A DNA stretch of 12,974 bases, from contig JAIXMO010000141.1 in the NCBI GenBank assembly GCA_025677825.1, forward strand, positions 1 to 12,974, written 5' to 3'. Each line of letters opens with the position of its first letter. Position 1 is the stretch's first letter. This DNA comes from Helicostylum pulchrum. Its lineage: Eukaryota; Mucoromycota; Mucoromycetes; Mucorales; Mucoraceae. A program made the position numbers and the translations under genes. Positions 1 to 12,974 of the stretch are shown in pieces. The notes under the pieces are model-generated. The model made no database searches, had not been told where the DNA came from, and saw nothing but the letters and a program-made list of their open reading frames with translations.

Positions 1-770
1 AGGGCTCAGAAGTTGATTCAGGCTACGGCCGGCAGTACACTTGCAGGTGCCAAGTTGTCGAATGTAGTACCTCGTAATCTTCCTCTGTTTCAATGGGGAA
101 AACCAGGTTTCTGTACCAGGTGCTCCTGTTTTCGTGGATGTAAACACTTGCATCATGAATTTTACTGATGTTATGATTAGTCATAACTTAGATTTGGATG
201 CTAATTACCTTCGGGTATTACCTCCTCTTCTTGCTGGAACTATTCGTCTTTGGTTTGAAGATTTTGTGACACAATTTAGAAAATTGTACCAACAAGATCC
301 TTCTTGGATTCAGTTCTCCACTGCCATGCAAGATCGCTATGGTCTTAACGTGCAGGAAGAACGTAACAACTGTGCTAGGGAGTTAAACAGTATTATGATG
401 TATGAAGGCGAGAACCTCGAATCGTTCATTGATAGATTCAATAGTTTGAGACGCCGTGCGGTAGATCAAGTATTACCCAATTCATTATAATCGAACGTTT
501 TCTTCTTGCTTTGCCTCGAAAGGTTGCTGAATATATCAACGTTGCTATTGTCAATCTTCCTGAATACAAGCGACAAGATATTGAAGTTCTTTCAGATTTG
601 GCCCGCCGATTGCAAAACAGTACTTTGTTTACTATGCGTGCTAATACCATGGTTGCCCCTTTGATGCCTCCTCGTGCTCCTAAGCGTTCTGCCATGCACA
701 TTGATCAAAATGATGCTGTACACAGATCTTCGAATAGATCTAGGCATGCTACCAATTTGGCTCAGTGCTG
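1..770 (+). pseudogene. Retrotransposon Gag, N-terminal/central part, frameshifted
   Basis: This is the structural Gag region, open at the left window edge. Coding character moves between frames: frame 1 from base 1 to about 98 (PRNLPLFQW), frame 2 from about 100 to 480, frame 1 again from about 481 to 760, then frame 2 into pol. The frame-2 segment stops at 490; the frame-1 segment is open across that stop and ends at 798. The middle part has a retrotransposon Gag pattern: W-F/Y-x-F helices, a charged segment and ESFIDRFNSLRRRAV followed by LPNS. Three frame changes within 770 bp, against none in the next 4.1 kb, suggest decay of gag or assembly error at indels. A single programmed frameshift would not explain three changes. 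The junction positions are approximate. Confidence 0.72.
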
Positions 771-3700
771 CTGCGCCCACTGGTACCACTACTGGTGAAT
801 CTTCCTCTTCTGCTGCTGTTTCTGTTGTGCCCCAACCAACTGACAAGTATTGTACCTTCCACAAGGCTAAGTCTCACAATACTAGTGAATGTCGTGCTGC
901 TGCTGCTGCTGGTACCAATGTGAAACCCCGGGTGAAATATTGCCATGGCTGTGGTGTCGCCGGTTGGAACCCTCGACACGAGTGCACTACTGCAAAACGT
1001 ACGTCTCCTCCTCTTCCTCCTAATACTAATCAAGAGTATAACTTTGGTGCGATGACCTTGCAACAAGGTAGCAATGTTGTTGGCCCTGCCAATACTTCTT
1101 CTGCTGTTCCTTCTGTTCCTTCTGTTCCTTTTGTTCCTTCTGCTGTCTCTTCTGCTTCGGTTACGACTTCGCGTGCTGAATTACAGGCAGCATACAATGC
1201 TGGTGTTGCTGACGCCACTGCGGATATACAGGAATTATCCATTGCTGATGATGAAGATGTCATCATGGATATACAAGCCCAGAATTGTAAGTATCATAAC
1301 GTATTTAGTTCTTTACCAGAAAATAAGTCTAACATGATCATAATTCCTATTATTATTCAGAATATTAAAACGTATGCCATTGTTGATACTGGTGCTACTT
1401 TTAGCATGGTGTCTCCTTCTTTTTCGACTTTTTTGGGTGGTGATATCAAGGTAGTTCCTTCCAAAGGTACTATCCAACTTGGCCATTCTGAAGCAGTAGT
1501 TAACAGATCTGGTTCTACAATTTTAAACATCTATTATAATAAAAAGGTTTTAAAACACAATTTCGAGATTTTTTCTTTCTTTACAAGTAAAAATAACAGT
1601 ACCATACCTATATTGATTGGACTTGATTTAATAAGTAAACTTAACATTGGTATCACTGGTTTAGCACTTAGTCATACAGAACTTGCAGCTGATAACCCTT
1701 TTTCCGATCCTCCTATTGATCCTTCTATTTCTGAACCTAATAACAGTCCTTATGGTACTATAGAAGAAAGAATTGAAATGGAAAAGTTATTAGAGCCTGT
1801 ACTTCTTGCTAATAAGAATATTGATGTTAAAAACACTTACTGTACACTACCTGGAGCTATTGTATACCTTGAAACCAAACCTGGTTGTATTGCTTATCGT
1901 AAAAGTTATAGTCTTCCTTTAGCATATAAGGAGAAAGTAGCTGAGCAACTACAAATTTGGCAGGATGATAATGTAATTGAACCTGTTTCAACTTATAATG
2001 GGTTTAATTCTCCTTTATTGGTAGTCGGAAAAAAAGATACTTCTGGCAAAATATCTAAAGAGAAAATTAGATTAGTTACAGATGTCAGAAATCTTAATGC
2101 TTTACTTACTGAAACTGATACACAACGATTTCCTTTGATTTCGGAAATCCATCAGAAGTTGGGGATGTCTAAAATTCATACTGTACTTGATATTAAGGCA
2201 TGCTTCAATAGTTTCATGATAGCAAAAGAACATAGACACAAACTTGCTTTTACAGACGTCTTTACAAACAAGCAATGGCAGTACAAGAAAGCACCATTTG
2301 GGATTTCTTTCATTGGGAACCTTGTACAAAGAGTTTTACAAGATTTGTTTAGCGACTTAGATTACATACAAGTCTACGTTGATGATTTGACAATTAGCAC
2401 AAGTGATACTTTACGCCATCATACAGATTGTGTTGCTGAGGTTATTCGTAGATTAACTAAGCACAATTTAATGATTGCTACTGAGAAAATGGTTTTTGCT
2501 CAACAAGCTATCTTTATTTTGGGTTGGACAATTCAGAATGGTGCTATGGTTCCAGATCATCGTAAGGTCAATACGGCATACGAGTTTGAAATTCCACATA
2601 CTACTAAACAGCTGCAGTCCTATCTTGGATATATGAACTATTTTAGATCGCATATATTGCTTTACGCGCATATTAGTGCTCCTTTAGACCAACTACGAAA
2701 TGTTGCTAATTTACAGGAAGTATGGAAACAAGAACACACTGATGCATTTAACAAACTAAAAGTGGCATTAGCTTCTGCACCTCTTATTTTTCCCATTGAT
2801 TATAATTACCCTCTTCATGTTGCTACAGATGCTAGTAACACTGCTATTTGTGGTGTATTATATATGCAAGTTGGCGAAAAAAAGAAATACGTGGCAATGG
2901 CAAGTCGAGGTTTAACAAGTGTTGAGAGATGTTACTCTACTACAAGGCGTGAATTATTAGCTATAGTTTACTGTTTTCAACGATTTAATAAATGGCTAGT
3001 ACAAAAGCATTTTACATTACATACTGATCATCGTTCGCTTTTATATATTCAAACAAGTCTGGTGCCTAACCACCTGTTATTGACTTATTACGAAACATTA
3101 TTTAGTCTTTCATATACTGTTATCCATATTCCTGGTATTCTGAATGTCATTGCTGATGCTGGAAGTCGAATGTACACAGACGGATATAAGTTGCAGGGTG
3201 GAGAGATAATAAATGAAAACAATAGTGGTTTTATTTTAAAAAAGGAAAAACGTACTTTCGAAACTGCTTTAGGCGAGTCACATCCACGTGTACCTGTTAA
3301 GCTTTTAAAATACAGACGAAAGCAACAAAAATTAACTCCTCAGTTAAATATTAATAACTTTCATAAACAAGTTCGTTACATTCCTGATGCTACTAACACT
3401 GATCCGTCTGAGAAAAAGACAGCAAACAGTAAATACAGTACTCAACTAGTTATGCGTGCAATGCAATACAAAGACTACATTACACCTCCTCCTTCAGAAC
3501 GTGACGATATCATTAACCGTGCACACTTGCTAGGACACTGGGGACAAAATAATGTCTTGCAAACTATTCACAATGACTATAATTTACATTGGACTAATAT
3601 TCATAAAGACATTCAGCGTATTATTTCCAACTGTGACCAATGTAGTCGGTACTCTGTAGCAAAAACGGGGTTTCATCCTTTCCGTTCTACTTCACCAACA

Positions 3701-4882
3701 CAAGTGTTTGACCACTGGTCAATGGATTTGGCTACGTTCAATATTACTTCCTCTAGTGGAAATAACTATATGCTTATTTTGGTTGATCATTTCAGTCGAT
3801 TTACAATTCTTCGCGCAATTACAGATAAATCTAGTCTCACTATAGCTAAAGAATTACTTAATGTTTTCTGTCTATTTTCATTTCCTAAGGTATTAACCTC
3901 TGACAATGGATCTGAATTCGTTAACGAAATTGTATCACAGTTAATTTTAATGAGTGGCATTGACAGACGATTATCTTTACCTTATACTCCTACTGGTAAT
4001 AGCGTTACAGAAAGATTTGTAGGAATTGCAAAATCTGTTATTGTTAAATCACTGAAAGGAAGACACGCAGATTGGGATTTATATCTCAATCCTACGCAAT
4101 TGGCTATGAACATTAAATACTCTAAACTACACAAGTCGAGACCTTATAGTATTGTATTTAACAGACAACCAAACGATTTTGCAGACTATTCTAAAGTCAC
4201 ACCTACCTTATCTTTAATGAAAGCTGATACTAAAAAGATACATGACAGACTTGCTTTTGCACAAGAAGTTGTTATTCCTCAAATAGCGAAATTAATTAAG
4301 ACCACACAAGATAATGATCATGCTCGTTTCGAAAAATCTCACAAGGTTTTAAAAGACATGTATCCAATTGGTAGTAAGGTGATGATCGTTAATGTACATC
4401 GTCAGTCTAAGTTAGATGAAAGATATTCAGGTCCATTTACTATTAAAGGATATACCAAAAACAAATCTTATATCTTAACAGACAGACTCGATAATCTTTT
4501 AAGCCGTGATGTTCCTACGCAACAGATTAAATTAATCCAATCTAGCGCAGCTTCTCAAAATGTAGTTAAAGATAAACACTACGAGGTACAAGCTATTATC
4601 GCACACAGAGGTGGCCCCATTAATTATGAATACCTAGTTCATTGGTTAGGATATAATGATGAAGCAGACCATACTTGGCAAACTGCATCTGATTTCGATT
4701 CTTCTTTACACATAGAACTTTATTGGCAACGCCGCAATGGCAACAACACAAAGGCTGCTCCTTTAGCTAAAACTGTCAATCATACTATTCGTAAGAAAGC
4801 CAATCGTGATAAACATTCCAACAAGAATGCTCATATTATTACGCGATCTCAAAGATTACTTGAGGCTAAACAGCAAAAGTAA
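674..4882 (+). CDS. Gag C-terminus/Pol polyprotein: protease, RT, RNase H, integrase, chromodomain
   Basis: This is the retrotransposition polyprotein. The open frame is about 1402 codons; its true translation start is upstream in Gag, so base 674 only marks where the frame becomes open. Residues counted from 674: zinc knuckles near 60-105 (C-x2-H...H-x4-C, then CHGCG...HEC, C-x2-C-x8-H-x-C, not the classic CCHC spacing); protease DTGA at D238; RT motif A at D506 and YVDD at 568-571; RNase H D719, E760, D785; integrase zinc finger H951, H955, C987, C990; catalytic D1018, D1077, E1113 with exactly 35 residues between the last two; chromodomain about 1302-1355 with aromatic residues Y1303, W1324, Y1327. 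RT motif B reads APFGISFIGNLVQ instead of the common PFGLxNAPxTFQ. The full set of catalytic residues argues that this part could still be functional. Confidence 0.93.
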   Translation: MLLSVLPCTLIKMMLYTDLRIDLGMLPIWLSAAAPTGTTTGESSSSAAVSVVPQPTDKYCTFHKAKSHNTSECRAAAAAGTNVKPRVKYCHGCGVAGWNPRHECTTAKRTSPPLPPNTNQEYNFGAMTLQQGSNVVGPANTSSAVPSVPSVPFVPSAVSSASVTTSRAELQAAYNAGVADATADIQELSIADDEDVIMDIQAQNCKYHNVFSSLPENKSNMIIIPIIIQNIKTYAIVDTGATFSMVSPSFSTFLGGDIKVVPSKGTIQLGHSEAVVNRSGSTILNIYYNKKVLKHNFEIFSFFTSKNNSTIPILIGLDLISKLNIGITGLALSHTELAADNPFSDPPIDPSISEPNNSPYGTIEERIEMEKLLEPVLLANKNIDVKNTYCTLPGAIVYLETKPGCIAYRKSYSLPLAYKEKVAEQLQIWQDDNVIEPVSTYNGFNSPLLVVGKKDTSGKISKEKIRLVTDVRNLNALLTETDTQRFPLISEIHQKLGMSKIHTVLDIKACFNSFMIAKEHRHKLAFTDVFTNKQWQYKKAPFGISFIGNLVQRVLQDLFSDLDYIQVYVDDLTISTSDTLRHHTDCVAEVIRRLTKHNLMIATEKMVFAQQAIFILGWTIQNGAMVPDHRKVNTAYEFEIPHTTKQLQSYLGYMNYFRSHILLYAHISAPLDQLRNVANLQEVWKQEHTDAFNKLKVALASAPLIFPIDYNYPLHVATDASNTAICGVLYMQVGEKKKYVAMASRGLTSVERCYSTTRRELLAIVYCFQRFNKWLVQKHFTLHTDHRSLLYIQTSLVPNHLLLTYYETLFSLSYTVIHIPGILNVIADAGSRMYTDGYKLQGGEIINENNSGFILKKEKRTFETALGESHPRVPVKLLKYRRKQQKLTPQLNINNFHKQVRYIPDATNTDPSEKKTANSKYSTQLVMRAMQYKDYITPPPSERDDIINRAHLLGHWGQNNVLQTIHNDYNLHWTNIHKDIQRIISNCDQCSRYSVAKTGFHPFRSTSPTQVFDHWSMDLATFNITSSSGNNYMLILVDHFSRFTILRAITDKSSLTIAKELLNVFCLFSFPKVLTSDNGSEFVNEIVSQLILMSGIDRRLSLPYTPTGNSVTERFVGIAKSVIVKSLKGRHADWDLYLNPTQLAMNIKYSKLHKSRPYSIVFNRQPNDFADYSKVTPTLSLMKADTKKIHDRLAFAQEVVIPQIAKLIKTTQDNDHARFEKSHKVLKDMYPIGSKVMIVNVHRQSKLDERYSGPFTIKGYTKNKSYILTDRLDNLLSRDVPTQQIKLIQSSAASQNVVKDKHYEVQAIIAHRGGPINYEYLVHWLGYNDEADHTWQTASDFDSSLHIELYWQRRNGNNTKAAPLAKTVNHTIRKKANRDKHSNKNAHIITRSQRLLEAKQQK

Positions 4883-5081
4883 CTTTAAGTAAATGCATGA
4901 ACCTTTTCCCTATATATTGTTTTTCCTGATGAAGGTTTTTAAGGGTTTTTACTGGTCTTATATACGCATTTTACTACGATCTATTATATTAGTTTACTTT
5001 CTCCCAAAATTTTTTTTTCTTCTCTTCTTCCTTTATTTTTCTACTTTGCTTTACAAATTTATCAAGTCTGGTGGGGGGTAA
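4883..5081 (+). other. Retrotransposon 3' untranslated segment and polypurine tract
   Basis: This lies between the pol stop and the LTR. A 62-codon open stretch at 4893-5081 is T-rich and looks like untranslated spacer, not a gene. The G-rich run GGTGGGGGGTAA (5070-5081) directly precedes the TG that starts the LTR, as expected for a plus-strand primer. Confidence 0.6.
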
Positions 5082-5225
5082 TGTTGTATTCACGTACTAT
5101 ACAGATATATAATTTAGATATACCTTTATACACAAAGGCTATATAACAATATAATATTACCTATTTAGTATTTGGATCTGTATACTTCTTATCGACTATA
5201 TAAATTTAATGAAGAAATATAGTGT

Positions 5226-5335
5226 AACAGTTTATTTCTTCAAGTGATACAATAACCTACAAACAGTTTATTGTACTGAAGTGGTACAATAATCTACAAA
5301 CAGTTATTCTTCTAAAAAGTGATACAAGAAGCACT
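5226..5335 (+). repeat. Three imperfect ~36-bp tandem repeats in the LTR
   Basis: Units start at AACAG 5226, 5262 and 5299 (periods 36 and 37). Each runs AACAGTTTATT, a variable part, then AAGTGRTACAA and an AY-CTAC-like end. The third is the most diverged. They lie about 130-240 bp upstream of the TATA-like box, in probable U3. Confidence 0.8.
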
Positions 5336-5377
5336 TTGTCTTCAAAGCTTATTTATTCATATTTTCCCACATTATAT

Positions 5378-5424
5378 TCACTTATTTTCCTCACCATCAA
5401 CTCACTTATTTTTCCCACCATCAA
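5378..5424 (+). repeat. Two 23-bp direct repeats in the LTR
   Basis: Copies at 5378-5400 and 5402-5424 share TCACTTATTTT, then CC, then CACCATCAA with small differences. They sit 40-85 bp upstream of the TATA-like sequence. Confidence 0.8.
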
Positions 5425-5463
5425 TTAATGTTCCTTCAAATGTCTTATTTATATTCTGAAAAG

Positions 5464-5472
5464 TATATATAA
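5464..5472 (+). promoter_or_regulatory. TATA-like box of the LTR promoter
   Basis: TATATATAA lies in the 3' part of the LTR on the element's sense strand, where U3 promoters normally sit. No start site can be shown from sequence alone. Confidence 0.45.
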
Positions 5473-5502
5473 GGACCTATAATTTCCATTAAATAAACAA
5501 CA

Positions 5503-5558
5503 ATCATTTCAAGTCTGATAATCTTTCTGTTTAATTTTTTATTTTTGATATTTATTCT
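5503..5558. other. Junction between LTR and Plavaka fragment
   Basis: This is AT-rich sequence with no coding signal. It may be the remnant of a Plavaka intron or 3' end cut by the chromovirus. Confidence 0.3.
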
Positions 5559-6605
5559 TTAAATATCATACATTGGTAAGCGAGACTTGAAGAACAATGG
5601 TGAGAAAAACAAGGTGAAAATACGCCATTCGTCTGCTTTCATGTAAGAGAATCCGTCACCAATGGTAATCTTGCGAGACAAGGAAGAGGCATCAATACCG
5701 ATTGGCATCACAATTTCTTTAGCCATTTTCGCCATGGCATTTAAATCCGATCGACTAAAAAAAGTCACGAAGATCTTTTCCACCACACGTTTACACGTTC
5801 CAAGGTACAGATTATGCATGGGATCATACACAGTGTTTCTGACCAAGTCGTAATATCGCAATTTATGGAAAGAACTAAACCTAGTGCCATTTAGCAAAAC
5901 TAGCCTTTGGCGTTCAGCGTCGTTCTTTGCATTCGACCATGTAAGCGCATAACTTCTGTTGGAAGCATTGGTTCTTTCAGGCCAATTGCCATCAAATCCG
6001 CCAGAGAAATCTCTCATCCAGTTGTATGCTGATAGACCTGGTAATGCTTTATGACAGCGTCTACAGCCAAAGGTCGAGTTGTGGGAAGAGAATCCAAAAA
6101 CTTTTGCTGCGGCAGGGAGATCCAGTACACCAACGAGTAGAGCTGCACGAACAAAGACAATTTCACCATTAGAAGAGATCATGTCAACACCATTTAATAG
6201 TGTATTCAATTCTTCGACTAATGGATCCATATAATTATTCATTTGAGACAAGCTTGCTTCATGGGGACCGGGCATCAATGATACTAGTATCACATTCTTT
6301 CTCAAGTTTCGTGTTCTTCTATCTAAATTCAGGATAGTCATATATACGGCGCCAATAGAAAAACTTCCTTTCGTGAATGCTTGATACCAGTCCACATTCA
6401 ACGAGAACAAGATATTACTATCTGAACTTTCGACAAACGGTTTAGCATCAGATTCGTGTGCTTTAAAAGTTTTCCATGCATTTCCATCCATAATATCAAA
6501 AAGATGACCTTCCTTCTGTAACTTTCTTGATCTCCAAGAATTGATACTTTCCATAAATCCATTCCTTTTAAAAAAGGTTTTTAAAGTTGAAATGATTGAG
6601 TTATA
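5559..6605 (-). pseudogene. Plavaka/Tnp2-type transposase fragment, truncated at both ends
   Basis: This is a transposase-family fragment. The open frame runs 6704-5559 (381 codons), but its first ~34 codons translate Tc1-type terminal sequence, so the real fragment starts near 6605. Recognisable pieces, numbered in that frame: SLNVDWYQAF (D105), MPGPHEASLS near 145-153, PLVEELNTLL, a Cys/His motif FGCRRCHKALPG (C214, C217, H218), a WPERTNA segment and the conserved YDPMHNLYLGT (D294). These fit fungal Plavaka/Tnp2-like (CACTA-related) transposases. The N-terminal part and the C-terminal third are missing; full-length relatives are far longer. The frame stops 57 bp from the chromovirus LTR. 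A possible splice donor (GTATGA) lies just before the stop, so the next exon may have been lost when the LTR arrived. Confidence 0.8.
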
Positions 6606-6632
6606 TACAGTATGCGGCAAAAGTGTCCGCAT
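6606..6632 (+). repeat. Tc1-type terminal repeat breaking the Plavaka gene
   Basis: TA followed by CAGTATGCGGCAAAAGTG and TCCGCAT. Tc1 superfamily elements insert at TA and often begin CAGT, so 6606 is a good left insertion edge. Plavaka coding ends exactly here. The core is nearly palindromic (ATGCGG...CCGCAT), so its orientation is partly ambiguous. Inverted and direct copies of the core lie at 6801-6817 and 10277-10293. Confidence 0.72.
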
Positions 6633-6799
6633 GTTTTTGATTTCTCCGGTTTTTATGCAATATCTGTAAGAATATAAATCCAAACAAAACGAGTAATATA
6701 CCATTAAAACCCCCTTAAAAAACTAAAAAGAAGTTTGTTAAACTTAAACGCTATAAATAGTAAAAGCCCCGATTCAAATCAATTTCAAATTAAAAGGTG
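6633..6799. other. Subterminal Tc1 sequence or interior of a short non-autonomous element
   Basis: There is no coding potential beyond the read-through of the Plavaka frame. The stretch lies between two inverted copies of the terminal motif about 200 bp apart. It is either the subterminal region of the Tc1 element or the inside of a separate MITE-like copy of the same family. Confidence 0.4.
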
Positions 6800-6800
6800 T

Positions 6801-6817
6801 ATGCGGACACTTTTGCC
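6801..6817 (-). repeat. Inverted copy of the Tc1-type terminal motif
   Basis: ATGCGGACACTTTTGCC is the exact reverse complement of 6616-6632. With the TA at 6800-6801 and the copy at 10277-10293 it can form an inverted pair (about 15/18 matches over 6802-6819 and 10275-10292) around the Tc1 coding region. It is therefore a candidate left end of the autonomous element. Confidence 0.65.
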
Positions 6818-6857
6818 TCTTTTACATTTTTTTTTTACATCATTTATTAAAAAGTAG

Positions 6858-7711
6858 TTAATGCTTTGTCCAATATCCTTTTGCTCTAATAACTTTGTTA
6901 CACCTCTTGTGCATGCTAAGAATATATGGCCTTACTTCTTCTGGTGTGATACTGTACCAAATATCTACTATTCTTTTCTTGAGTTCCTTTATTGATGATG
7001 GTGGCATAGTATAATTAGAATACAATCGATTTTTCAATAGAGCCCAAATGTTTTCGATAGGATTCAAATCTGGTGACTGTGCTGGCCAGTTTACGGTCTC
7101 AATTTTTTGATCTCTGAGCCAATCAGTAACAATATTAGCAGTATGTTTTCTATCGTTATCATGCATAAAAAGAATGTCATCCTTCTTGAGATTGTAATAA
7201 TCAATTGTTTCAATAAAGTCTTCTTCTAGAATACGTTTATAAAGATGTTTGTCCATTGTTGTATCGATAAAAACAAGATAACCAACTCCTTCCCAAGTAA
7301 TACAGCTCCAAACCATAACACTACCACCACCATGCTTTACTGTCTGATTTACTTGCTCTAGTCTAATACCTTCGTCGGATCTTTTGTAACACCAACTTAC
7401 ACCGTCTGAGCCAAAACGGTTAATTTTTTCTCATCAGACCAAATAACATTTTTCCAGTCAATATCTGTCCAATCAACGCGGCTTTTACCGAATGCTAATC
7501 GCAATTTTCGATTGACAGGAGATATTTTAGGTTTGTTAGGTTTCTTAAAAGGGACAATACCTCTTGATTGAAGGTAACGACGAATAGAACGCGTACTTAA
7601 TGAGATTCCTAGGTCATTTAATAGCAGTCTTGACAAAACAGTAGCTGATTGGACCTTTCCTTTGGTCACCTGATAAACCATAAAATCGATTGTAGATTTA
7701 GTAACTTTCAT
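6858..7711 (-). pseudogene. Tc1 transposase, catalytic part, one frameshift
   Basis: This is the DDE domain that would cut and join transposon ends. It reads leftward from the insertion boundary. After KVTKST comes a second helix-turn-helix segment (about VTKGKVQSATVLSRLL to STRSIRRYLQSRG), then WSDEKK with the first catalytic Asp, and a frame change at the T6 run 7424-7429 (A6 on the coding strand). In the next frame it continues NRFGSDG, HGGGSVMVWSC, FMHDNDRKHTA with the second Asp, and DLNPIENIW with the Glu, exactly 34 residues after that Asp. It ends at a stop at 6858. Adding back one base in the run would restore the frame. The open frame continues past 7711 to 7867 (IYHM and beyond), but that part is inserted DNA, not Tc1. 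The N-terminal piece is at 9967-10137. Confidence 0.9.
7706..7710. repeat. Target-site duplication TTTCA, left copy
   Basis: TTTCA precedes TGTGGT and matches 9967-9971, which follows CGACA. The next base T is also shared. Collapsing the two copies to one joins the Tc1 pieces in frame through the shared Met-Lys codons. Confidence 0.72.
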
Positions 7712-7936
7712 GTGGTAAATGGGAGTGTAGAATAAAGATATATATATAATAAAAGAGAGGGTCAAGTATAAATACTGTGAGACTGGATTAAAGTGTTTTA
7801 TTATATCAAAAGAGATCTCAGGATTATAAGAATCCTGTTCTAAGGTTGTATTTATACCATTTACCAAAGAGACACTAAGTATTTTTAGTAAGCTATATTT
7901 ATTAGTGTCTTTACATTATATTATTTCATGATGTAA
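7711..7936. repeat. Probable solo LTR, left part, split by the Merlin-like unit
   Basis: This begins TGTGGTAAATGGGA at the 5-bp duplication; the partner end reads TGTCGTGATCTGGGA on the other strand. TG...CA ends with a 5-bp duplication are typical of an LTR. If bases 7937-9923 are removed the LTR would be about 269 bp. It has a TATAAAT-like sequence near 7770, a hairpin CAGGATT/AATCCTG (7819-7837) and an inverted repeat AGACACTAA/TTAGTGTCT (7870-7910). No internal retrotransposon sequence is present, hence solo. The ends are also similar enough to be terminal inverted repeats of a DNA transposon, so the identity is not settled. Confidence 0.48.
7928..7936. repeat. Candidate 9-bp target duplication of the Merlin-like unit, left copy
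   Basis: ATGATGTAA recurs exactly at 9915-9923. Merlin elements are known to make 8-9-bp duplications. In AT-rich DNA a 9-bp match can arise by chance, and no convincing inverted repeats lie just inside. Confidence 0.4.
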
Positions 7937-7993
7937 TTTGGGTCATTATCATTTTAGGTCTCAGGTTTATCTTTTTTGTATAAATTTAGATAT

Positions 7994-8842
7994 TCACAAT
8001 AGGTTATTAATAGAATTAATTAATCCGTTTAATGATGTTTTTTTAAGTGAATTAAAAGTATACAATGAGAATATATAGTCACTGTTTATTAATTTTTCAT
8101 TACTATATATTAGATAGCTTATTTCTGTATTTTTTAGAAATCTTGATTTATTTTTGTCATATATTTTTGAAACATCTGTAATATAATCATCATTTATTTC
8201 ATTATTAGTATATCTGTAAAATATATTAGCAAATGTTTCTAATGTATTTCTATTATTAGCTTTTATTTTTTCGTATAGGTCATTATTTTTCTTTAATTTC
8301 GTTAAATTATCTTTTAATTTATTTATAACTTTTATAACCTCTTTCTTATTATCTAATTTTTTATATTTATTTCTTTTGTTATCTTTATTTCTATCTTTTT
8401 CTAAATTCTCAATTAATTCTGGCATATAATCATCAGTTTCTTCACTATCTAATTCATAGTCTTCTTCCATAATATCTTTATTGCTATTATTATTATTATT
8501 ATTTTCTATAGTTTTTATATATGCTGTATTATTAATCGTTTTTTTCTTATAAATGGATATAGAATCATCTGTTTCAATATTCTCAATTAATTCTGGCATA
8601 TCATCATCTGTATCATCATTATCTAGTTCATATTTTTCTTCCGTAATATATTTATTATCTTTATTTTGAACTTCCGGTGTATTTTTGAAGCTATTTGAAA
8701 TAGGTCTGTTAAAAGATTTATAGCATAGATTTTCTCGTTTTAATAAATGTACTTTATTTTCTAGTTTTTTTATTTTTTTTAATAAATGTATATACTTTAC
8801 CTTTTTTATTCTAACATATAAATTGATATTATATGAAGCCAT
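7994..8842 (-). CDS. Unrecognised Lys/Asn-rich protein with coiled coil and duplicated acidic motif
   Basis: 282 codons, ATG at 8842, intact. I do not recognise a family. Residues about 14-40 have Leu/Ile/Val at coiled-coil spacing among Lys and Glu (YIHLLKKIKKLENKVHLLKR). Two acidic segments, EEKYELDNDDTDDDMPELIE and EEDYELDSEETDDYMPELIE, lie 58 codons apart and derive from a DNA duplication. An Asn run sits between them (ATT microsatellite, 8486-8504). The C-terminal half is basic, then Tyr/Ile/Asn-rich with no visible motif. There is no signal peptide or membrane segment. It lies just downstream of the Merlin-like transposase in the same direction, with the same base composition, so it is probably an accessory protein of that element. 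DNA or partner binding is only a guess from the coiled coil. Confidence 0.62.
   Translation of the reverse strand: MASYNINLYVRIKKVKYIHLLKKIKKLENKVHLLKRENLCYKSFNRPISNSFKNTPEVQNKDNKYITEEKYELDNDDTDDDMPELIENIETDDSISIYKKKTINNTAYIKTIENNNNNNSNKDIMEEDYELDSEETDDYMPELIENLEKDRNKDNKRNKYKKLDNKKEVIKVINKLKDNLTKLKKNNDLYEKIKANNRNTLETFANIFYRYTNNEINDDYITDVSKIYDKNKSRFLKNTEISYLIYSNEKLINSDYIFSLYTFNSLKKTSLNGLINSINNLL
8405..8601 (-). repeat. Direct repeat inside the accessory ORF (8405-8427 and 8579-8601)
   Basis: A 23-bp stretch is identical in both copies, and similarity extends about 40 bp further to the right of each. The offset is 174 bp, exactly 58 codons, so both copies encode the acidic MPELIEN motif in the same frame. 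Confidence 0.85.
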
Positions 8843-8896
8843 ATTATCTTAAATTTTATTTATTATTAGAAATTCAATTTTTTTATAAAAATACTT

Positions 8897-9802
8897 TTAA
8901 TCTTTTAAGAAATTTTTCCATATATTATTTTCTCTGTTTTTCTTTCTCCATTGATACTCTTTTAAATGCAGTAAAATATTTTTTTTATTACGATTTCTAG
9001 GAATAATACTTTGTTTTAAACCATTCCAAGTTCCTTCTATTGTGTTAGTGTGAACTCCAGTTATTGGGTCCTTAAAATTCTTAGAATGATTTACAGTTTT
9101 ATGCTTATATCCGATATTCTTTAAATTATTATAACCCTTCCAACAATCAGTATAAATAGTGGTACCTTTTTTAATGTGTTTTTTTATAATTTCATCAATA
9201 TTTTCAATATTTCTTTCTTCTATTGGAACTAAAAACATTTGTTTATTTTCATTCTTAATTTTATTTTTTAGTCTACTCCTTTGAATACCTCCAATAATCC
9301 AAGCACCCTCAACATTATGTCCTTTATTATACTTTCTTTTAGCAATTTTAGTTTCGTCAATTTCAACAATTTCATTTCTACCACCAATTTTATTAGTTTT
9401 ATTTAATATTTGCTTATTTTTAATATATTTTCTGTATATTTTATTATATGAGGATACTGTATTTTTACTAATTTTTAAGCTAGATGATATAAAAGATGAA
9501 GGTGCTTTACCCAAAAACAGATAAAGTATATGTAACTGTATATTTAATGGCAATCTCAATTTGTTAAATATTGTACTTCTAAGAGGAGAAAATGCTTTTC
9601 TACATTTATAAAACTTACAAACATATAATTTTTTCTTAAAATTTAATGTAGTGTCTTTTCCACATTTTTCACATTTGAGATACCTATTAACGTAATTATT
9701 TTTTATTAAGTAGTTTAAAGCTTCTAATTCGTTATCGAATACTTTTTTTAAAGATTGGTAAGATTCAATAAACATATGTTTTATAATAATAAAATAATTC
9801 AA
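8897..9802 (-). CDS. Merlin/IS1595 (ISXO2-like) family DDE transposase
   Basis: This is an intact 301-codon transposase, expected to cut and insert its own element in the nucleus. The N-terminal zinc ribbon has Cys at 44, 47, 62 and 67 (CEKCG...CKFYKC), followed by a helix-turn-helix-like stretch at about 100-125 (SSLKISKNTVSSYNK). The catalytic core shows VEIDETKIAKRKYNKG (D149), GAWIIGGIQR, YTDCWKGYNNL (D219) and HTNTIEGTWNGLK (H251, N253, E256), with 36 residues between D219 and E256. This set is diagnostic of the IS1595/Merlin superfamily, and its length is normal. The start may be Met1 or Met10. It is strikingly Lys/Asn/Ile-rich, unlike neighbouring transposases, which fits arrival from an AT-rich genome. 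The same-strand accessory ORF follows after 54 bp. Confidence 0.92.
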   Translation of the reverse strand: MNYFIIIKHMFIESYQSLKKVFDNELEALNYLIKNNYVNRYLKCEKCGKDTTLNFKKKLYVCKFYKCRKAFSPLRSTIFNKLRLPLNIQLHILYLFLGKAPSSFISSSLKISKNTVSSYNKIYRKYIKNKQILNKTNKIGGRNEIVEIDETKIAKRKYNKGHNVEGAWIIGGIQRSRLKNKIKNENKQMFLVPIEERNIENIDEIIKKHIKKGTTIYTDCWKGYNNLKNIGYKHKTVNHSKNFKDPITGVHTNTIEGTWNGLKQSIIPRNRNKKNILLHLKEYQWRKKNRENNIWKNFLKD

Positions 9803-9914
9803 TTTTTATATATTAAACTATATATGAGAGTTATATTGGGATACATCCTGTAATTTATATGATAGACTTTTAGTTTATATTACTTAGCTTCATTTAATAT
9901 ACTAGTCTTTGACT

Positions 9915-9923
9915 ATGATGTAA
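9915..9923. repeat. Candidate 9-bp target duplication of the Merlin-like unit, right copy
   Basis: ATGATGTAA, identical to 7928-7936. The match may be by chance. Confidence 0.4.
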
Positions 9924-9966
9924 GTGTGTCTAGTTAATTTTAATAATTATATCCCAGATCACGACA
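9924..9966. repeat. Probable solo LTR, right part
   Basis: This ends ATCACGACA next to the right TTTCA copy. Its terminal bases read inward as TGTCGTGATCTGGGA, 11 of 15 aligned positions matching the left end at 7711. Confidence 0.45.
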
Positions 9967-9971
9967 TTTCA
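9967..9971. repeat. Target-site duplication TTTCA, right copy
   Basis: Matches 7706-7710 and lies exactly where the N-terminal Tc1 piece stops being Tc1-like. Confidence 0.72.
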
Positions 9972-10137
9972 TATTTCGCCCTTTTAATTGTATATTTCTG
10001 TCGGGTAACTTTTCCTTTCCTATTTTAGCAACTGTTGACTTGCCTACCCCTGTTCTAGTTGAGGTTTCACGAACACTCATTCCGTTTGTTAAACATTGTA
10101 CGACATTATTGATTTTGGAAGTAGACGTTTTTCGCAT
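9967..10137 (-). pseudogene. Tc1 transposase, N-terminal DNA-binding piece
   Basis: 57 codons from ATG 10137. The first helix-turn-helix of a Tc1 transposase is visible: GMSVRETSTRTGVGKSTVAK, followed by a basic tail ending GRNMK. The frame then runs eight codons into foreign sequence and stops at 9940. The last shared codons, Met-Lys, recur in the same frame at 7711-7706 before VTKST. The two pieces plus one base for the 7424-7429 frameshift total about 339 aa, normal for Tc1. The gene was therefore nearly whole when the 2.26-kb insertion arrived. Confidence 0.86.
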
Positions 10138-10273
10138 TTTGATAACTTGAAATTTTGGATATTACTTACTGTGAATATGTGTAGTTAATATCTTACACTA
10201 TGTTTGGTGTCATTTTTTATAGCAATATTAAATATGTAGCCAAATTGTGGTTCAGAAAAAAAAAAAAAAAAAA
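10138..10273. other. Tc1 5' untranslated region ending in an A18 run
   Basis: AT-rich DNA between the Tc1 start codon and its right terminal motif. The A run covers 10256-10273. No promoter is certain. Confidence 0.4.
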
Positions 10274-10276
10274 GGG

Positions 10277-10293
10277 GGCAGAAGTATCCGCAT
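10277..10293 (+). repeat. Third copy of the Tc1-type terminal motif (right end)
   Basis: GGCAGAAGTATCCGCAT matches 6616-6632 at 15 of 17 positions in the same orientation and is inverted relative to 6801-6817. A TA follows at 10293-10294. Weak similarity continues to the right (TCTCTGGCTTT against TCTCCGGTTTT after the first copy), so this could instead be the edge of another copy extending rightward. Confidence 0.6.
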
Positions 10294-10471
10294 AGTATCT
10301 CTGGCTTTAAACAAAGATTAATTTCGTTACTCCAACTCTAAACTTTGTGTGACATAACTTGTAAACGACAATATACAGGGCTTTCATATCGTATAAACTT
10401 TGTCTGCTTTCGAAAATTATCTTAGCAACAATAAGCTGATATATTCAAAAGTCTCACCAAGGCGAAATGAA

Positions 10472-10536
10472 ATGATTACAATGATAAAATTATCAGTACT
10501 GCTAATCAGCGATGATAATTTTATCATTGTAATCAT
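10472..10536. repeat. Perfect inverted repeat, 24-bp arms, 17-bp loop
   Basis: Arms 10472-10495 and 10513-10536 are exact reverse complements, ending in TGATAAAATTATCA-type sequence. The loop contains a smaller GCT/AGC stem. DNA or RNA from this site could form a strong hairpin. It sits in non-coding DNA beside the Tc1 right end. Confidence 0.92.
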
Positions 10537-10638
10537 CACTGATTGAGACTAATCATTACTGATTGAGTCTATCAGTGATGCTAGCTCGCTATCATCACTG
10601 CTTGATTTATCATTACTGCTAAAAATTTATCATTACTG
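10532..10638 (+). repeat. Cluster of five ATCAT(C/T)ACTG repeats with small inverted repeats
   Basis: Copies at 10532-10541, 10552-10561, 10591-10600, 10609-10618 and 10629-10638. Some are followed by (A/C)TTGA. A reverse-oriented ATCAGTGAT occurs at 10571-10579, and AGACTAATCA faces TGATTGAGTCT around 10547-10570. Spacing is irregular, so this is not a simple tandem array. Confidence 0.8.
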
Positions 10639-10883
10639 ATTCCGCTGTCAGTATCGCTGATTTAATCCGTGCATAAAAAAAAAGGCATTTTAAGCTCTTA
10701 TTGAATCATTGAAAGTCCATGGTACTGATAAAATACCTATTCAATCAGGGGGGTAACGATAGCGCATTTCGTAATATATATTCGTACATATATTTCTTTA
10801 AAAAAAGGAATTATTAAAAAAAAGAAGAATTTTTATTATTTACAAATGAATTGTGTTGTTTTTATATATATTGAGAAGAGGAA

Positions 10884-10950
10884 GTGTATATGTTTATATA
10901 ATGGGAAATGTGTATGTTTATATAATGGGAAAGGTACGTGTTTATATAAT
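10884..10950 (+). repeat. Three short tandem repeats of ~24 bp
   Basis: The units share GTGTATGTTTATATAATGGGAAA-like sequence, starting near 10884, 10909 and 10933; the last is shortened and diverged. No function is visible. Confidence 0.75.
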
Positions 10951-11117
10951 AGTTCGTTATTGTTATTTAGTACGAACAGGGATTAAATAGGGTATAGTAA
11001 AGTAAGAGGAAAATGCACATTTGTAATAAGTCAATACCTTGAATAATAATAAAAAATAGTTAGAATAAGCTCAAGTTTGTATAATAACTTTATTCTTACC
11101 TTTTAGTCTGAAAGTGA

Positions 11118-11298
11118 GCAGTAGTAAAAATACAAGGTATGGAATAAAAACAATATTGTGTTAGCTATCTTTATATAAAGTTAAATTTGACTCATGACAT
11201 ACCTGAAGCGGTCAGTAATAAAAAAATACAAGATATAAAATAAAAACAATAGCGTTAGATATCTGTAACAGTTAAGTTTAATATGACATTACCTAATT
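11118..11298. repeat. Imperfect ~90-bp direct duplication
   Basis: 11118-11208 and 11211-11298 align over most of their length, sharing AATAAAAACAATA, TTAG-TATCT, GTTAA-TTT and GACAT-ACCT blocks. The diverged copies suggest an old duplication. Confidence 0.6.
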
Positions 11299-11497
11299 TC
11301 GAAAGAATGGGATGAATTGCAACATGATTGCAGACAGCTTTATGCCAAGCTCCAAAGAAAAAGTTTTATTTATTTTAATAGACGAAAAGTGTTATAAAAA
11401 AAAAGAAAAAAAAGAAAGGAAAGAAACTGTTCTATTTATAAAAAAAAAAGGAAAAAAAAAGCAAGAGTAATTTTACTGCCAGTCACACTAAAAGGGT

Positions 11498-12559
11498 CTA
11501 TGCTCTGCTTCTTTTGTCGCCTAAAACAGAAATAGGTACCCCATCAACTATACTTACCTGTGGAATGTCATCCTCCGCCGTCAAATCAGAAACTGAGAAA
11601 CCTTCAGCATCTTCTTCCTCAACCGTGACCTATTTATGTTGATCCAAAAAAAAAAAAAAAAAAAAAAAATAGTGAGTAATACTGATATTTGCGAAATAAA
11701 AAAAAAAGGAAATAATAAAATAACTTACGGTTGGGTTCTTTCCTAAACCCTTCCTCGTGCCTTCATTACGGATAGCAATGGATAACAGATGGTATGTAAC
11801 CCAATTATCTTCGGCCAAATCCAACGGAAGACAAGCATCGCGGGTGAGCGTCTCCAAAACAATATGCTCGACAACACATGCCATTCGTTCCTTCTCGTGT
11901 ACCGTTAAGTGACCCCATCTGATATTGCTGGCAGCATCGGAGAAGTGGGTTCTAACGAACAGAGTGATCATTACGTTGGTCTTTTCATATCTATCCGACG
12001 CATCTCTATATCTAGCTTGGCAATTTTCTTCTTCTGTCGCCATCCCGTAATTTACACTTATGGCTTTTAACCAAAGAGTGCCCGTTGCAATAATTATGTT
12101 TTTCATCTCTTTGACACTCACGCCAGTTTCCGAGGAGACATTACTCTTACTATAACAGCGTTTACCACGGTTACTTTTGGCATTGCTTACAATTTCATCG
12201 GTCTTAGCCTGATTCTTCAAGATTTCAAAAGAAGATGGGTGGATAGACAACGGGTTCGTGCCAACAGAGTAAGACCCTAAATAAATGCACGGTGGTTAGA
12301 ACTAGGCAAAATATGATTATTTATATCCTTAACCAAATTAGTTACCTGAACTGAAAGAAACAGGATTGGAAGAGAAGCCAGAAGAGTTTCCAGCGTTCAT
12401 ACTCAAAAGCTTTGAAAGCATCGACTTGATTTCAGACACTTCTCCTATAAGAAAGTCAAGCTTGGCAGCATCGGAAGAAGTATTATTGAATACTGCGTTT
12501 TGAAACAAATCATTAGATTCCCAAGAAGAAAGGTCGACGATGTTATTATTGTTGGACAT
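11498..12559 (-). CDS. Spliced gene for an unrecognised ~297-aa protein
   Basis: Exons: 12559-12346, 12276-11729 and 11629-11498. Introns: 12345-12277 (69 bp, GTAACT...TTTAG, branch-like TTCTAAC) and 11728-11630 (99 bp, GTAAGT...AATAG, containing an A24-type run). Splicing keeps one frame: 214 + 548 nt make 254 codons, and the third exon continues NPT with VTVEEEDAEGF. The N-terminus is polar, with an amphipathic helix at about 30-54 (KLDFLIGEVSEIKSMLSKLL) of coiled-coil type. After a Ser/Asn-rich linker comes a folded-looking domain with many W, Y, C and H residues, and an acidic C-terminus. I recognise no family, signal peptide or membrane segment. A 37-nt candidate third intron (11557-11521) would change the tail and move the stop to 11488. 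The lack of transposase motifs suggests a host gene. Confidence 0.72.
11630..11728 (-). other. Intron 2 of the unrecognised gene
   Basis: Perfect GTAAGT donor after the Thr codon and AATAG acceptor. It contains a T-run on the coding strand (11646-11669 on +) and is stop-laden if unspliced. Confidence 0.72.
12277..12345 (-). other. Intron 1 of the unrecognised gene
   Basis: Donor G|GTAACT, acceptor TTTAG|GG and branch-like TTCTAAC (12295-12301), about 20 nt from the acceptor. The unspliced frame stops at once (GGT AAC TAA), and splicing joins a split Gly codon. Confidence 0.75.
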
Positions 12560-12630
12560 AGTTAATTCAAGTTTTAAAAATTAAAAGAAAGGGTGGGGGG
12601 GGATTTTTTTTCTAAGTGAAAATTTGTACA

Positions 12631-12640
12631 TTTATATACA
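12631..12640 (-). promoter_or_regulatory. TATA-like element upstream of the spliced gene
   Basis: The minus strand reads TATATAAAT about 75 bp before the ATG at 12559, a plausible distance for a fungal TATA box. A G9-type run at 12592-12602 lies between them. Confidence 0.3.
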
Positions 12641-12974
12641 AACCGTTACCTGATACATAACCAAATATAAATTTTTTTCATGAAACATACCTACTTTTAG
12701 AAGAAGCAAGAAACAAATTTCAGCAGAAAAAAAAAAGTCACCAAATATAAATCTGCTATACAATCGAATTAGTAAATGAGCTTGTTGACTTTGTATCAAA
12801 AATTACCTTTATATATGTATGCATTTTCTTCATATTAATGAATTACTCTCTTCATCTTAACTCTATTGTTCTATTTTGCAACTTAAACTACTATTCCCGT
12901 TATTGAATCTAAAGCCTTTTGATTTCTTCTTTTTTTTCGATTATGGGTCCAAGGCCAGGTAAAAGTTTCATTGC
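12641..12974. other. Upstream intergenic DNA; possible start of a rightward gene at the edge
   Basis: This holds a 13-bp repeat ACCAAATATAAAT (12660-12672 and 12740-12752) and pyrimidine-rich DNA. An ATG at 12943 opens a + strand frame (Met-Gly-Pro-Arg-Pro) to the window end, preceded by a T-rich tract. It may be the first exon of a divergent gene, but only 32 bases are visible. Confidence 0.3.

Follow-up and report, generated by a model that had tools for sequence, protein, structure and literature searches.

The window analysed here, the whole of a 12,974-bp contig (C48) in a genome assembly of Helicostylum pulchrum (32.2 Mb, 168 contigs), contains a series of transposable elements (TEs) inserted one into another. 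From the oldest to the youngest these are a tnp2 element, a Tc1 element, a Ty3-type solo long terminal repeat (LTR) with the target-site duplication (TSD) TTTCA, and a Merlin element, which carries a second gene (ORF2) besides that of its transposase. This order is well supported, with empty sites in the same genome at every level. The layers are as follows, with the strand where a feature has one:

5571-6607, minus strand: fragment of a tnp2 (Transposase_21, 'Plavaka-type') transposase gene (Pfam E 7.1e-14), the oldest layer of the chain
6606-6607: TA target of the Tc1 element, followed in the window by CAGTATGCGGCAAAAG
6608-7710, minus strand: left part of the Tc1 element, carrying the left terminal inverted repeat (TIR) and most of the transposase gene, from genome copies and Pfam
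7706-7710: left TTTCA duplication of the LTR unit, a single TTTCA in uninterrupted Tc1 copies
7711-7939: first part of the solo LTR, matching other LTR copies
7932-7939: left 8-bp target duplication of the Merlin element, TGTAATTT, from copy comparison
7940-9848, minus strand: Merlin element of 1909 bp with GG...CC ends and two genes
9849-9856: right 8-bp target duplication of the Merlin element, TGTAATTT, from copy comparison
9857-9966: second part of the solo LTR, matching other LTR copies
9967-9971: right TTTCA duplication of the LTR unit, again single in uninterrupted Tc1 copies
9967-10454, minus strand: right part of the Tc1 element, holding the beginning of the transposase gene and lacking the right TIR, from comparison with other copies

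Layers of the nest

The oldest layer gives a Transposase_21 match of 51.9 bits (cut-off 28.6), and further copies of it were found on C59 (99.7%), C56 (99.3%) and, in part, C74 (98.9%), the first of them as a single 887-codon stop-to-stop frame. All copy numbers given here are lower bounds, as the three genome searches scored the best 40 of 54, 40 of 53 and 40 of 66 candidates. An initial reading made from the letters of the window and their translations (the sequence-only reading) had the Plavaka-type frame ending at a TA with a Tc1-type end; the three copies bear this out, reading through the TA at 6606-6607 with no Tc1 element in it. The 'Plavaka' label itself appears to hold as far as Transposase_21/tnp2, the fragment's own element ends lying outside the window, while the other family guesses of that reading, namely Tc1, LTR and Merlin, were correct.

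The Tc1 element in this TA has matches to HTH_Tnp_Tc3_2 (33.5 bits, cut-off 31.5) and DDE_3 (50.5 bits, cut-off 28.6). Complete copies, such as that on C18, have inverted ends flanked by a TA on each side (TA-CAGTATGCGG...CCGCATACTG-TA); copies in the genome share the window's left end, which is the only one that the window retains. On the right the other copies match the window up to 10454, rather than only to 10294, where the sequence-only reading had placed the end of Tc1; past this point the window runs into CACCAAGGCG and the other copies run into the right TIR, CATGCGGACACTTTTGCCGCATACTG-TA (with one base different on C50). Five copies (C18, C77, C15, C33 and C50) span the site of the LTR unit, whereas that on C73 stops at a contig end short of the site and is outside this count. 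These are the uninterrupted copies in the same genome that the sequence-only reading had proposed to look for: the 2.26-kb segment which it saw splitting the Tc1 gene between TTTCA repeats (7711-9966, 2256 bp) is absent from 5/5 of them, and the frame that it had rejoined through Met-Lys is present on C18, which reads ...GRNMKVTK... in one frame. The copies on C18 and C15 have single long frames of 347 and 342 codons, respectively, and the C77 copy carries its own frame break. The window copy, with 7 substitutions relative to C18 in ~1590 bases, has an additional frame break near 7.4 kb. As far as tested, it is an ordinary member of its family with nothing unusual beyond the nesting.

The segments 7711-7939 and 9849-9966, which overlap by the 8-bp Merlin duplication, make up a 339-bp LTR with TG...CA ends (TGTGGT...ACGACA). 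Thirteen other copies of this LTR (337-340 bp) lack the inner unit, their listing being by design one of copies without Merlin (length filter 250-450 bp). A perfect 5-bp duplication surrounds six of them; the remaining seven share element-internal sequence on one side, and four of these seven are the paired LTRs of two full-length elements (C53 and C45), whose matching duplications, as read from the flanks, are ACCAA and CATAC. The window LTR is a solo LTR from a Ty3-type element with a chromodomain, the full-length relative on C45 having H2C2, integrase (rve) and chromodomain (Chromo) matches.

Inspection of the single copy in the window might suggest that Tc1 elements of this family normally include the 2.26-kb segment, or, as in the sequence-only reading, that the inner unit is bounded by a 9-bp repeat, ATGATGTAA (7928-7936/9915-9923). 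We give these alternatives practically no chance. The first is countered by the five spanning Tc1 copies; as for the second, 13 complete inner units end at the equivalent of 9848, a 9-bp duplication is seen in 0/13 of them, and the sequence of 9849-9923 is found with the LTR and without Merlin at many places. The 9-bp repeat, both copies of which sit in LTR sequence, is a chance match. The other part of that claim, a compositionally different inner unit with its own transposase, agrees with a GC content of 21% and a DDE_Tnp_IS1595 transposase.

By far the most probable history is that a cut-and-paste Tc1 element first entered a TA of the tnp2 (Plavaka-type) transposon. A chromodomain Ty3-type retrotransposon then integrated in the Tc1 gene with a 5-bp duplication, being left today as a solo LTR, and Merlin integrated in the LTR sequence with an 8-bp duplication; the formation of the solo LTR may fall before or after the arrival of Merlin. 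The layer order rests on nesting; within-family divergence alone does not rank the layers, the LTR copies diverging more among themselves than the Tc1 copies do. A relative age order for at least three families had already been claimed from the window, and the empty sites at each level agree with it. Compared with known Tc1/mariner elements, Ty3 solo LTRs and tnp2/Plavaka elements, those of the window are ordinary as far as tested, differing only by their nesting, and nesting in itself is ordinary.

Two further elements at the edges of the window, which would represent separate events, were outside the sequence-only reading, as was ORF2 in the inner unit:

1-5570, plus strand: Ty3 retrotransposon with reverse transcriptase (RT), RNase H, integrase and chromodomain; its 5' end is off the contig and its 3' LTR cuts the tnp2 gene at 5570/5571
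10455-12974, plus strand: DNA element with CAC...GTG ends cutting the Tc1 element; the contig stops before its right end

The Ty3 element has a long frame at 665-4882 (1405 codons) and a 3' LTR at 5082-5570, with ends placed by comparison with other copies; its 5' LTR lies beyond the contig end. The cut in the window's tnp2 gene follows from the copies on C59 and C56, which extend to the left of 5571. The right-hand element has the CAC...GTG inverted ends of CACTA/EnSpm elements, seen as CACCAAGGCG...CGCCTTGGTG in a 2135-bp copy on C105, at which no TSD is evident. The two frames of it that were scanned (11633-12295 and 12341-12580) gave no Pfam match. Just inside its CACCAAGGCG end, the stretch 10472-10536 holds near-palindromic, repeated ATCATTACTGATT-like motifs, resembling subterminal repeats. 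No Rfam family was found in the window.

Some observations count against this picture of the locus. The second target duplications of the left Ty3 and of the right CAC...GTG element fall beyond the contig ends, and the assembly was accepted as given, although one Merlin insertion is divided between contigs C37 and C21, which indicates that repeats did break the assembly. The nest could in part be an artefact of repeats misjoined on a short contig, and the modest length of the contig, the divided Merlin insertion and the sharing of one Merlin site by C67 and C69 might be seen in this light. We nevertheless regard such an artefact as very unlikely: exact target duplications surround both the LTR unit and the Merlin element, which is not expected from chance joins, and the same families form a second nest on C50 (4124-8844; L006, L027). 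There, a Tc1 copy lies within an older Merlin element, and that Tc1 copy in turn holds an LTR without Merlin and, near its other end, a young Merlin element. These other arrangements of the same families support the nested reading. Taken together, we are highly confident that the window is a TE nest in a TE-packed part of the genome, with each junction as listed and a two-gene Merlin element innermost.

The Merlin element and its transposase

The first gene of the Merlin element is the following:

8897-9775, minus strand: Merlin transposase, 292 aa, start codon at 9775 (DDE_Tnp_IS1595, E 2.1e-17)

The transposase scores 64 bits with Pfam (cut-off 27) and 90.9 bits with the NCBIfam model transpos_IS1595 (cut-off 75). 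In an alignment of 19 transposases C35, C38, C53, C58, D210 and E247 are invariant and D140 is nearly so, with D140, D210 and E247 aligning as the DDE residues. This DDE transposase, for which the genome has 12 full-length intact matches, would carry out the cut-and-paste step.

Including that in the window, there are 13 complete copies (defined by an exact match of the terminal 25 bases on each side) with the same ends, and a perfect 8-bp TSD flanks 13/13. The duplications amount to 12 distinct ones, as one site is common to C67 and C69; these two loci (L021 and L015, respectively) have the same flanks as well, and one of them has frame breaks, pointing to a duplication or to two haplotypes. 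Ten of the 13 copies are identical over the 1909 bp and the window copy is one base off those, and the copies on C63 and C67 have small indels and disrupted transposase frames. Beyond these, the insertion divided between C37 and C21 has GTAGTAAC on each side, and a copy on C47 has one flank only. The termini begin with GG (GGGTCATT / GGATGTAT) and the TIRs are imperfect, matching at 14/24 (P ~0.007) and 17/30 positions (0.005) as well as at 6/12 (0.15) and 10/20 (0.07); TCTCA at positions 20-24 is common to all four termini of two Merlin lineages. The DDE_Tnp_IS1595 transposase, the 8-bp TSD and the GG ends together point to the Merlin superfamily, whose members are expected to have a TSD of 8 or 9 bp and TIRs of at least 24 bp. 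The available part of PMC8101967 describes the same transposase, TSD length and termini for Merlin, with highly imperfect TIRs already reported, and Merlin is known from the Mucoromycota (PMC8101967; PMC7928374, from the portions at hand).

The second gene of the Merlin element

The two genes share the minus strand, the transposase coming first, and the start of the second lies 54 bp past the transposase stop:

7994-8842, minus strand: ORF2, 282 aa, start codon at 8842, the second open frame of the Merlin element

A homology search recovered 17 homologues of ORF2 and a profile search, with the best 7994 candidates scored, recovered 24. The named relatives of ORF2 are all Mucorales (Thamnidium elegans, Mucor flavus and Mucor hiemalis), and the same three species are named across both Merlin proteins. 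The ORF2 and transposase matches share identical longest-contig sizes (3580802, 5876844, 5142, 2081, 2020, 1946), which hints at linkage and is not counted as proof of it because contigs of Mb size can hold many copies. In the H. pulchrum genome, 14/14 full-length matches to ORF2 are intact, with no differences among them, which says little on constraint because the copies are young. An older lineage, the Merlin on C50 that is interrupted by a Tc1 copy, also has an ORF2, with 86% to P0125, one stop and a start adjoining the end of the transposase gene. This adjacency lies in one continuous stretch; the two ends of that older element are without a matching TSD and its pieces may stem from more than one copy.

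A protein-guided comparison of the two lineages gave an omega of 0.65 for ORF2 (219 codons; bootstrap 0.43-0.98), against 0.09 and 0.08 for the two transposase pieces; an earlier piecewise estimate was 0.52 for ORF2 and 0.07 for the transposase. This suggests that ORF2 is fast evolving and weakly constrained. In an AlphaFold2 model (mean pLDDT 61.5) residues 14-44 form a helix, the middle is disordered and the protein is helical from 165 onwards (block means 72-92). ORF2 would have a helical, coiled-coil-like N-terminus, an acidic linker and a helical C-terminal domain. In two of the genome's distant Merlin relatives (L081, 447-956; L082, 455-1810) an acidic tail is found on the transposase frame itself, whereas the acidic stretch of the two-gene family is in ORF2. 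One ORF2 homologue, P0128, has an exonuclease-like (DEDD) stretch ahead of the ORF2 C-terminal domain, with weak matches (NCBIfam E 2e-6, far below the model cut-off; Pfam E 0.01). A viral origin of ORF2 was considered and set aside, as four scans of viral contigs (with the transposase, ORF2, P0128 and an alignment) gave no relative.

From these patterns we consider it reasonably probable that ORF2 is a putative transposon-encoded accessory protein, which would aid transposition, complex assembly or target choice. The homologues, the intact matches, the adjacency to the transposase in the older lineage and the omega of 0.65 speak for this role. It is weakened by the low constraint, by the omega of the N-terminal part (0.53, range 0.19-1.31) and of the C-terminal part (0.51, range 0.21-1.10), whose ranges include 1 when each is considered singly, and by the want of recognisable kin: ORF2 had no significant match in Pfam, PHROGs, NCBIfam or PDB sequences, and Foldseek returned nothing at E<=0.001 from PDB and BFVD. 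More tentatively, ORF2 could be a passenger without a role in transposition, comparable to the genes in bacterial IS1595-type elements. The contrast in omega between ORF2 and the transposase would fit a passenger, as would the finding that the 2.6 kb around each of two distant Merlin relatives (C33, C15) holds no ORF2-like sequence; passenger genes are also in print for IS1595-related elements, e.g. MTnSag1 and tISCpe8 (PMC3129680, PMC5704250, in the excerpts available). Against it stand the retention of ORF2 beside the transposase in two lineages, its intactness in all 14 full-length matches, albeit in near-identical young copies, and the lack of any enzyme or cargo-like domain match in the window ORF2. 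The bacterial elements, as far as those excerpts go, resemble the window element in having a related DDE transposase and genes besides it, and differ in being bacterial and in carrying other cargo, with ORF2 having no known-domain match.

Insertion sites and known relatives

Among 13 distinct Merlin sites with two flanks, 12 are inside recognisable transposons: one in the LTR, one in a Tc1 element, eight in Ty3-type frames related to that of the window, and the last two in a frame with RT and in a frame with integrase, respectively. The thirteenth, on C43 (L016), was not assignable: two of its flank frames lack a Pfam match, and one of these showed no significant match to the window tnp2 protein. 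The 13 contigs carrying complete copies total 213,728 bp, or 0.66% of the assembly, and the 16 near-identical full or partial matches listed (contigs C9 to C69) are all on contigs of at most 33.4 kb and none on a large contig. It is conceivable, though we think it unlikely, that ORF2 is a dedicated transposase partner which would steer integration into silenced, transposon-rich chromatin, sparing the host from harm. Such a partner would fit the 12 of 13 sites in transposons on so small a part of the assembly; these counts do not test targeting, because the TE fraction of the genome is not known and contigs may be short through repeat richness. On the right flank of the partial C47 Merlin (L024), a frame combines a weak DDE_Tnp_4 match (E 0.011, below the cut-off) with a C-terminal chromodomain (E 1.9e-9), and may be a DNA transposase that carries a chromodomain itself.

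Among eukaryotic DNA transposons, Harbinger and CACTA are examples with two genes, encoding a transposase and an accessory protein. They are similar to the window's Merlin in having a second protein within one element, and different in the superfamily of their transposase; neither a sequence link nor a fold link between them and ORF2 was found. Within the Merlin superfamily, the window element differs from those in the available text of PMC8101967 in its second gene downstream of the transposase, none such being found there; that text has an additional 1-kb open reading frame, which overlaps the transposase in the opposite orientation. The part of PMC12730594 at hand covers Plavaka and not Merlin. 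A two-gene Merlin was not found in the literature searched, as far as its available parts go, and may be in print in the main fungal survey (Muszewska et al., 2017), which was outside the search. Hence, a Merlin lineage with a second gene appears to be new as far as our searches show, with the function of that gene being a proposal.

From this nest several transposon families can be dated relative to one another, and the intermediate stages are found within a single genome. Should movement depend on ORF2, the element would count, so far as our searches go, as a two-component Merlin. With all copies found being on short contigs, its target choice is directly testable, and with a length of 1.9 kb and near-identical copies it is a tractable counterpart, in eukaryotes, to the IS1595 elements.

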